Shown here: positions 33,905 to 40,776 of the stretch, in pieces
Numbering within the stretch: the stretch's first letter is position 1
Layout: every line of letters starts with the position of its first letter
The notes under the pieces: model-generated
The model's database searches: none
The model's input: the letters and a program-made list of their open reading frames with translations, nothing else
What the model was told of the DNA's origin: nothing
Program-made: the position numbers and the translations under genes
IMG/VR virus record: IMGVR_UViG_3300029787_000002
Coordinates: 1-64,000 of that record
Reading direction: 5' to 3' (one strand)
DNA: 64,000 bases
Origin: a virus

Positions 33905-35284
33905 ATGACAGTTCAAAAACTACAAGAGAAGTGGGCACCCGTTCTTAATCACGACGCTCTCCCAGAGATCGGTGACTCTTATAAGAAAGGCGTAGTCGCA
34001 CAACTCTTAGAAAACCAAGAAAAAGCACAAATCGAAGAAGGTCAAATCCTTTCTGAGACTTTACAAACTACTGGTTATACTGGTGGCAGTACCGCTACAG
34101 GTCCTGTTGCAGGTTTCGACCCAGTACTTATCTCATTGATCCGTAGATCAATGCCTTCTCTAATCGCTTACGACATCGCAGGCGTTCAACCAATGACAGG
34201 TCCTACTGGACTTATCTTTGCGATGAGAACTAACTACGGTGCAGAAAGAGATCCTAACGCATCTGGTTACGATGAAGCATTCTTCAACGAACCAAACGCA
34301 GGTTTCTCTGGTGGTGCAGGCGGTTCTTACGATCCTGGCGCATCTGGTTCTGCAAACAACGACGCTGAAGGCAACAACCCTGCTGTTCTTAACGACGGTT
34401 CTCCTGGAACTTACGAACAGACTGGTGATGCTGCAGGCATGTCAACTGCTACATCTGAAGCATTAGACGACAGTGCATCTAACACTGCGTTCAGAGAGAT
34501 GGGTTTCTCCATCGAGAAGGTGACTGTTACTGCTAAGGCAAGAGCTTTAAAGGCAGAGTACAGCATCGAACTTGCTCAAGACTTGAAAGCAATTCACGGT
34601 CTTGATGCCGAGCAAGAACTTAGCAATATTCTCTCTACTGAGATTCTTGCTGAGATCAACAGAGAAGTTGTTCGTACTATCTTTACGAACGCTGTTGCAG
34701 GTGCACAGAACAACACTTCTACTGCAGGTATCTTCGACCTTGACGTTGACTCTAATGGTCGTTGGTCAGTTGAGAAGTTCAAAGGACTTCTTTTCCAGAT
34801 CGAAAGAGATGCTAACGCTATCGGTCAGCAAACTCGTCGCGGGAAGGGCAACATCTTGATCTGCTCTGCAGACGTTGCTTCTGCTCTAGGTATGGCAGGC
34901 GTTCTTGATTACGCTCCAGGTTTACAAGGTAACAACGCACTTACAGGTGTAGACGATACTTCTTCTACTCTCGTTGGTACTCTTAACGGACGCATCAAGG
35001 TTTACGTTGATCCTTACTCTGCTAACGTTGCTGACAAGCACTTCTACGTTGCAGGATACAAAGGTACTTCACCTTACGACGCAGGACTATTCTACTGTCC
35101 TTACGTTCCGTTACAGCAAGTTAGAGCAATCAACCCTAACACCTTCCAACCAAAAATTGGTTTCAAGACTCGTTACGGTATGGTTTCTAACCCATTCTCT
35201 GGCGGACTTACTCAAGGTTCTGGTGCACTTACTGCTAACGCTAACAAGTACTACAGAAGAGTACAGGTTGCAAACCTTATGTAA
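33905..35284 (+). CDS. 23: Major capsid protein gp23
   Basis: Hexamer-forming shell protein with HK97-type fold. The conserved sequence PVLISLIRRSMPSLIAYDIA, then GVQPMTGPTGLIFAMR is the hallmark of T4-type gp23. A Gly/Ala/Asn-rich insertion follows (residues 110-185), and FREMGFSIEKVTVTAKARAL with KAEYSIELAQDLKAIHGLDA completes the core. Length 459 against 521 in T4. It ends with the typical GLTQGSGALTANANKYYRRV block and is followed by a terminator that also contains the promoter of a candidate RNA. Confidence 0.97.
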   Translation: MTVQKLQEKWAPVLNHDALPEIGDSYKKGVVAQLLENQEKAQIEEGQILSETLQTTGYTGGSTATGPVAGFDPVLISLIRRSMPSLIAYDIAGVQPMTGPTGLIFAMRTNYGAERDPNASGYDEAFFNEPNAGFSGGAGGSYDPGASGSANNDAEGNNPAVLNDGSPGTYEQTGDAAGMSTATSEALDDSASNTAFREMGFSIEKVTVTAKARALKAEYSIELAQDLKAIHGLDAEQELSNILSTEILAEINREVVRTIFTNAVAGAQNNTSTAGIFDLDVDSNGRWSVEKFKGLLFQIERDANAIGQQTRRGKGNILICSADVASALGMAGVLDYAPGLQGNNALTGVDDTSSTLVGTLNGRIKVYVDPYSANVADKHFYVAGYKGTSPYDAGLFYCPYVPLQQVRAINPNTFQPKIGFKTRYGMVSNPFSGGLTQGSGALTANANKYYRRVQVANLM

Positions 35285-35307
35285 TAGGCAATATTGCTTA
35301 TCTTTTG

Positions 35308-35334
35308 AGAGGGTGCTTGACACCCTCTTTTTTT
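35308..35334 (+). terminator. gp23 terminator
   Basis: An 8-bp stem AGAGGGTG (35308-35315) and CACCCTCT (35321-35328) with loop CTTGA and a seven-base T-run. It is 24 bases after the gp23 stop. The loop and 3' arm spell TTGACA, the -35 of the promoter listed next. Confidence 0.9.
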
Positions 35335-35344
35335 ATGCTATAAT
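35317..35344 (+). promoter_or_regulatory. Consensus sigma70 promoter inside the gp23 terminator
   Basis: TTGACA (35317-35322), 16-base spacer consisting mainly of the terminator T-run, and TATAAT (35339-35344) with an extended -10 (TGC directly before). The predicted start is about G35351. No credible coding gene follows for 250 bases, so it points to a non-coding transcript. Confidence 0.75.
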
Positions 35345-35539
35345 TTAAGAGTAACGACGGTTACGTCGGGAGTGACTGAATAAACTTACTGGCATATAGC
35401 TAGTTAAGGTGATGAGACACAGGTGGTGCTGCTACGAAAGTAGAATCGATTTACCAATCGGGTCTCAGGCAAGAATGTTTTTACTCTGTAGTAATGCCCA
35501 TTCTTTGTTGGTATACAGGATTCCAACCTCCCTCTATAT

Positions 35540-35547
35540 TATAAATA
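35540..35547 (+). promoter_or_regulatory. Late promoter TATAAATA near the 3' end of the candidate RNA
   Basis: Perfect TATAAATA, 52 bases upstream of the ATG at 35600. Transcription would start close to the terminator hairpin at 35556, so the late mRNA would begin with or just inside that hairpin. Confidence 0.6.
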
Positions 35548-35555
35548 AAATTAAT

Positions 35556-35579
35556 AGGACTCATTAGCAGTCCTTTTTT
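35556..35579 (+). terminator. Rho-independent terminator ending the candidate RNA
   Basis: A 6-bp stem AGGACT (35556-35561) and AGTCCT (35569-35574), loop CATTAGC, followed by six T. It ends 20 bases before the next ATG. Confidence 0.8.
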
Positions 35580-35599: not shown

Positions 35600-35899
35600 A
35601 TGTTATCTACCGCTTATCGCCTTCGACTAGAAGGCATATGTAAATCTATCGCAGCAGGAACGGAAGTAAGTATAGACGATATGATATGGGCACAGAAACT
35701 AGCAAAATCAAATACGTCCGCAAGAGGTATGCTGAGTACAGCAAGACGTATGAATACGAATCCAGACGATTCTTTTCTTAACGGTCTGAATATTGGTGAC
35801 CCCGATTCAGGCAACCACCGTAGGGGTTTCTTTAATCCAGAAGAAGTAGTAGACTGGTTTCATCAAGAACGTTCAGATGATTGGAGACAACGCGACTAA
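35600..35899 (+). CDS. Conserved-looking small protein, unknown
   Basis: A 99-residue protein: an N-terminal helical half (YRLRLEGICKSIAAGTEVSI, DDMIWAQKLAKSNTSARGML) and a C-terminal half with NGLNIGDPDSGNHRRGFFNP and EEVVDWFHQERSDDWRQRD. The arrangement resembles small cyanophage proteins encoded near gp23, but I cannot name a family. It has its own late promoter and its stop overlaps the next ATG (TAATG). Confidence 0.75.
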   Translation: MLSTAYRLRLEGICKSIAAGTEVSIDDMIWAQKLAKSNTSARGMLSTARRMNTNPDDSFLNGLNIGDPDSGNHRRGFFNPEEVVDWFHQERSDDWRQRD

Positions 35900-36650: not shown

Positions 36651-36682
36651 GCATTCCTATAAAATTGATTTCATAATATACT

Positions 36683-40748: not shown

Positions 40749-40776
40749 TTGACATCCTTGTCAAGTATGCTATAAT
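40749..40776 (+). promoter_or_regulatory. Consensus sigma70 promoter for gp55
   Basis: TTGACA (40749-40754), 16-base spacer, and TATAAT (40771-40776) with extended -10 TGC. The -35 is one arm of a palindrome TTGACA-TCCT-TGTCAA. The gp55 ATG lies 21 bases downstream. It would be read by host RNA polymerase before late transcription. Confidence 0.75.

Follow-up and report, generated by a model that had tools for sequence, protein, structure and literature searches.

A manA RNA with its own promoter behind the capsid gene of a T4-like cyanophage, a candidate trans-acting RNA gene

The locus behind gp23 and the identity of its RNA

The window, that is, the whole stretch of 64,000 nucleotides that was analysed (positions 1 to 64,000 of virus record IMGVR_UViG_3300029787_000002), has metaG-MbCM1 as its nearest record, and the genes around the element described here are those of a T4-like cyanophage, as judged by Pfam and PHROG. 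According to the list of open reading frames (ORFs), a gap without genes extends from the stop of gp23 at 35284 to the next ORF start at 35600. The features of the locus are as follows:

33905–35284 (+), gp23 major capsid protein gene, upstream neighbour of manA (Pfam PF07068, E 2.6e-148; PHROG 138)
35307–35329 (+), gp23 terminator hairpin, from a pattern scan
35317–35344 (+), sigma70-type promoter TTGACA-N16-TATAAT with extended -10 (TG), 12/12 matches
35350–35537 (+), manA RNA, RF01745, full length (cmscan 184.9 bits, cut-off 55.2, model positions 1–192)
35350–35365 (+), 5' hairpin of manA in the Rfam structure, starting about at the expected transcription start
35368–35532 (+), domain closed by GGGAG/CUCCC; one pair with an AU to UA exchange, the rest invariant
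35413–35467 (+), multibranched element with GAAA loop at 35436–35439; in its closing helix 6/6 pairs double-changed in some relative
35424–35456 (+), possible loop-loop pairing of UGGU (35424–35427) with ACCA (35453–35456), complementary
35471–35505 (+), long hairpin; in its outer helix 7/7 pairs double-changed in some relative
35540–35547 (+), TATAAATA, T4-type late promoter motif preceding the downstream gene (4 occurrences in the window against 3.3 expected)
35556–35574 (+), with T-run (T6) to 35580, terminator-like hairpin closing the RNA unit; weak, -6.1 kcal/mol
35600–35899 (+), downstream gene, 99 aa, no assigned function (PHROG 507, phrog_507, E 2.6e-44)

The preliminary description had reported a structured RNA with its own promoter and terminator behind gp23 and had recognised in it no known family. 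Promoter, fold and terminator-like hairpin were all recovered. The statement on the family fell with the Rfam scan, a good hit to a described RNA being one of the outcomes that the description itself had named as a refutation: the full-length match rules out an unknown RNA family and places the RNA in the known manA family RF01745, not in a new one. Our own covariance model, R1, scores it at 206 bits. The extent given earlier, 35308–35579, holds from about 35350, where the RNA proper begins, whereas its first position falls in the gp23 terminator. Up to E 0.05, manA was the sole Rfam match in the window, with no match to GOLLD, ROOL, 6S, tmRNA or other described RNAs, and it occurs once in the whole record of 172,907 bases; a local Rfam scan gave a sub-threshold L20-leader match over the region of the gp23 terminator. 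GOLLD and ROOL, structured RNAs of phages whose role is unclear and which often occur near tRNA genes, served as a working comparison only; the window RNA has no Rfam match to either, and manA is much shorter. The earlier judgement that the gap holds no credible coding frame was sound: a coding region inside the manA stretch was rejected, the only frames there being of 40–52 aa. It should be noted that small hypothetical proteins are annotated over manA in the public records of P-HM1 (PHM1_121), S-SSM5 (SSSM5_127), P-HM2 (PHM2_011 and PHM2_012) and P-SSM4 (PSSM4_169.1); these are probably not real genes.

In 2010 Weinberg et al. described the manA RNA in cyanophage and marine metagenome sequences, reported it from possible 5' UTRs of genes concerned with sugars, nucleotides, chaperones and photosynthesis, and graded it 'Y' as cis-regulatory and 'y' as a riboswitch (PMC2864571). 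Rfam, which types the family as Cis-reg, swapped its alignment in release 14 for the original one, with 48 significantly covarying pairs reported (PMC7779021), and the RNA has since been annotated once more in a cyanophage, S-CREM1 (PMC9964418). The window copy shares sequence, fold and cyanophage setting with the published RNA (PMC2864571), but here the RNA is provided with a promoter and a terminator-like hairpin of its own and does not stand in a leader that belongs to a gene for mannose, nucleotide or photosynthesis functions; at this locus the type Cis-reg is not supported. Two other families of structured RNAs from the same kind of phage, wcaG RNA (RF01761) and the glutamine riboswitch (RF01739), sometimes occur near manA, neither being present in the window; in two viral contigs, glutamine riboswitch aptamers lie a few hundred nucleotides upstream of manA (L019:312-360 and L039:2333-2381). 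Copies were also seen in a contig of a Flavobacteriales MAG and in a 189 kb Prochlorococcus single-cell contig (L122 and L123, one each), where they probably stem from phage DNA that was co-binned or co-amplified with the cell.

A fold maintained by compensatory change

The stem-loop regions noted beforehand, including the multibranched element and its GAAA loop, agree with the family consensus, which places the closing stem of the domain at 35368–35372/35528–35532 and further hairpins at 35388–35404 and 35507–35527. Relatives were gathered by pattern from viral contigs, 52 diverse sequences (the window copy included) were aligned, and the pairs of the Rfam structure were counted as mapped onto this alignment. 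Standard pairs filled 91.7% of the cells, a value expected to be high as the structure was taken from the family consensus; the double changes are the stronger evidence. The covariation proposed earlier as a check proved strong among the 52 relatives, 29 of the 57 pairs changing on both sides, and double-change cells numbered 246, compared with a mean of 62 after shuffling and at most 61 when the partners were slid. The consensus secondary structure of manA is maintained by compensatory change. Its 5' hairpin varies in length and therefore aligns badly (48% paired), and the unpaired core is almost invariant. The pairing of UGGU with ACCA was not accepted as a covariation-backed pseudoknot, since it is invariant in all 52 sequences and covariation cannot judge it.

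Folding energy was unconvincing as proof of structure in the window sequence (z = -1.56, with 17 of 200 shuffles equally good), and covariation was used in its place. That the energy of a single sequence barely beats shuffles would suit a functionless chance structure between two genes; we regard this explanation as scarcely credible in the face of the full-length family match, the compensatory changes and the promoter that accompanies 171 of 172 copies.

Promoters, 3' ends and changing neighbours

The window promoter ends 5 nt ahead of manA and belongs to a class, TTGACA-N15-18-TATAAT, observed three times in the window where 0.07 would be expected by chance. It is fused with the gp23 terminator, its -35 box lying inside the loop and 3' arm of the terminator hairpin. 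Among the 172 manA copies with enough upstream sequence, all but one had a promoter of at least 10/12 matches just upstream, against 3.2% of random control positions, and 70 had, like the window, a T-run between the -35 and -10 boxes, which suggests that terminator, promoter and manA often move together as one unit. The fused terminator and promoter seem to recur as a module. Elsewhere in the window, a terminator at 36658–36623 (-) holds TTGACA in its loop and 3' arm, with a correctly spaced TAAGAT, and a perfect promoter with TTGACATCCTTGTCAA at 40749–40776 (+) overlaps a short inverted repeat.

At the 3' side of the window copy, the terminator has a probability of about 0.85 with manA folded, and the two fold side by side. 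No convincing partner for an alternative pairing between them was found in the window, and antitermination by this route was rejected. To judge by the sequence, the RNA has the two marks of an autonomous noncoding RNA gene, a promoter and a predicted 3' end of its own; together with the covariation and the varied neighbours, they support the earlier suggestion of a separately expressed phage RNA. Within 60 nt 3' of manA, a terminator-like element was present in 28 of the 98 copies of a first sample, compared with 1.5% in the control, as counted with a relaxed scan, a stricter one having missed the window's own hairpin. The terminators of P-HM1/MED4-213, S-SSM5 and the window are mutually unrelated in sequence. 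Neither a terminator nor the companion hairpin described below occurs in 61 of the 98 copies, which run toward a gene, for example gp32 or talC. A late promoter behind manA was rejected as a general rule: the motif is modestly enriched there, following 17% of copies (3% of random positions), and it precedes 11% of other ORFs.

The companion is a conserved hairpin standing 7–19 nt behind about a quarter of manA copies (L012, L014, L034, L080 and about 90 further contexts) and absent from the window. It reads AGACC-UAAGA-UGC-ACUC-loop-GAGU-SGGGCA-GAU-GGUCU, its outer pair shows a coupled change from G-C to A-U (78 and 18 of 96), and about half of the examples have a T-run behind them. Wherever upstream sequence sufficed to tell, manA accompanied it in every case. 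The hairpin is not part of the Rfam manA model, has no Rfam match of its own, and in its UAA-GA/GA part recalls a k-turn.

Exactly one manA was found with the covariance model in each of 11 complete cyanophages, as well as one each in P-SSM3, P-TIM40, P-RSM1 and S-SSM7, and one in each of nine further records, some of them fragments. Several copies per genome, as suggested by blastn matches at two places in some records, were rejected, the covariance model having found one. The position of manA changes between genera though the copy number stays at one. It lies behind gp23 in the window, metaG-MbCM1, P-HM1, MED4-213, S-SSM5, P-RSM4 and P-RSM1, before gp32 in P-HM2, behind regA and before purL in P-SSM2, near talC in P-TIM68, P-TIM40, P-RSM6, P-SSM3 and P-SSM4, and between ferredoxin and carbamoyltransferase genes in P-SSM7. 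Neither a packaging element nor a tie to gp23 finds support, given that the RNA adjoins gp32, talC, regA/purL or tRNA genes in other phages. Most copies stand 10–100 nt ahead of an ORF, and the proteins encoded downstream (178 contexts) were gp32-like (51), TalC-like (23), HAD-like (13), cupins of the mannose-6-phosphate-isomerase type (6), ThyX-like (4) and many singletons; gp32 and talC were confirmed by annotation in P-HM2, P-RSM6 and P-TIM40, the other labels being readings of the sequence. In five contexts tRNA-Asn or tRNA-Gly follows manA by 5–19 nt, and in S-CREM1 manA fills the gap between tRNA-Leu and tRNA-Asn.

These surroundings bear on the published guess for manA, a cis-acting riboswitch or leader (Rfam type Cis-reg; grades 'Y' and 'y' in PMC2864571), which in the window would sense a metabolite and terminate, or not, at 35556–35574 ahead of the phrog_507 gene. 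The usual distance to the next ORF accords with a leader, and the conserved core resembles an aptamer. Against these stand neighbours without a common pathway, tRNA genes among them, the single copy per genome, terminators that differ between phages in sequence and position, and, in the window, the lack of a clear alternative terminator/manA pairing and of any visible expression platform. The setting itself is mixed: the gene at 35600 follows with the terminator-like hairpin in between, and elsewhere both leader-like and tRNA-flanked copies occur. We consider a riboswitch unlikely at this locus, if still a serious candidate.

A more general cis element could be a 5' structure that keeps host nucleases off the early phage mRNA, or an antiterminator-like read-through RNA. 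It would account for manA being always at the extreme 5' end behind a promoter, with any type of gene following, and host RNase E is reported to be induced by a cyanophage of Prochlorococcus MED4 (PMC9692554). For protection, though, a simple hairpin would suffice and some 190 conserved nucleotides would not be needed; a single copy per genome would serve one transcript only, and a terminator-like element stands immediately behind 28 of 98 copies. This explanation appears improbable to us. For gp32 leaders, of which a few were inspected by eye, sequestration of the ribosome binding site was discarded as not general.

Association with Prochlorococcus and mode of action

All 14 T4-like Prochlorococcus phages that we found carry manA, twelve as detected by the covariance model and two, P-SSM5 and P-RSM3, by a blastn match. 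Among 15 Synechococcus phages, which were hand-picked and include by name ACG-2014b, with no host on record, two carry it (S-SSM5 and S-SSM7) and 13 do not. The association with the host gives Fisher p=6e-6 when kinship is not counted. On the gp20 tree the state of manA changed at least five times, and of six independent host contrasts five (four in some pairings) ran in the same direction and none in the opposite one, which gives p ~0.06. Syn1 and Syn33, named 'Prochlorococcus phage', have Synechococcus hosts on record and lack manA. The phage collection holds 318 gp20-bearing records named after Synechococcus, and only four Synechococcus-named ones match manA by blastn, a search that misses divergent copies. 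Two positives lie outside the set of 15, S-CREM1 (host CB0101) and S-TIM4 (WH8102), the latter almost identical to P-RSM4 in this region; with S-SSM5 and S-SSM7 they are the exceptions to the host link.

Our preferred reading, to which we assign a probability of roughly 55%, makes the window manA an early noncoding RNA that is self-contained and acts in trans. Early in infection, the host RNA polymerase would produce it as a separate transcript of about 225 nt; this would fold into a compact multibranched domain, with the near-invariant unpaired core (GUGACUGAAUAAACUU, UAAGGUGAUGAG and GGUGGUGCUGC) as a binding surface, and its target in trans would be a host factor, most probably one connected with Prochlorococcus. 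Where manA is followed by a gene or tRNA with no terminator between, the RNA may be freed by processing or may double as a leader. The literature that we searched held no transcript map showing a manA transcript.

Several lines of evidence favour this trans-acting RNA: the RF01745 match with its covariation, the promoter fixed in place in 171 of 172 copies (control 3%), the one copy per positive record despite a shifting position, terminator-like elements that recur in 28 of 98 copies with sequences unrelated between phages, and the link to Prochlorococcus hosts. To these are added the conservation of manA in metaG-MbCM1, at 182/183 identical positions, as compared with 980/1000 for gp23 and 287/297 for the next gene, and the tRNA genes that follow manA immediately in five contigs and flank it in S-CREM1, where manA has no protein gene to lead. 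In metaG-MbCM1, substitutions were also seen in the arms of the gp23 terminator, which is weakened, and in the T-run behind manA, the promoter being intact. Against a trans-acting RNA count the 61 of 98 copies that run toward a gene, as a leader would, the weakness of the window terminator, and a host link that stands at p ~0.06 with kinship considered, draws on a hand-picked Synechococcus set and has four exceptions. For the family at large, we can put forward only tentatively, at somewhat less than even odds, that manA, rather than being a cis-regulatory leader, is an RNA gene that works in trans against Prochlorococcus, kept as one copy and moved with its promoter, to which some lineages add a 3' hairpin.

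The claim of novelty is thus corrected, the element being a case of a known RNA family, and it is the census of this family that gives reason to reopen the question of its function. Seen across many cyanophages, the surroundings of manA point to an RNA gene complete in itself, not just a switch of its neighbour. For an RNA that covaries, occurs once per genome and in 14/14 T4-like Prochlorococcus phages, and has its own promoter and no single gene attached to it, action in trans would fit better than a riboswitch, and this can be put to the test with cultured phage–host pairs.
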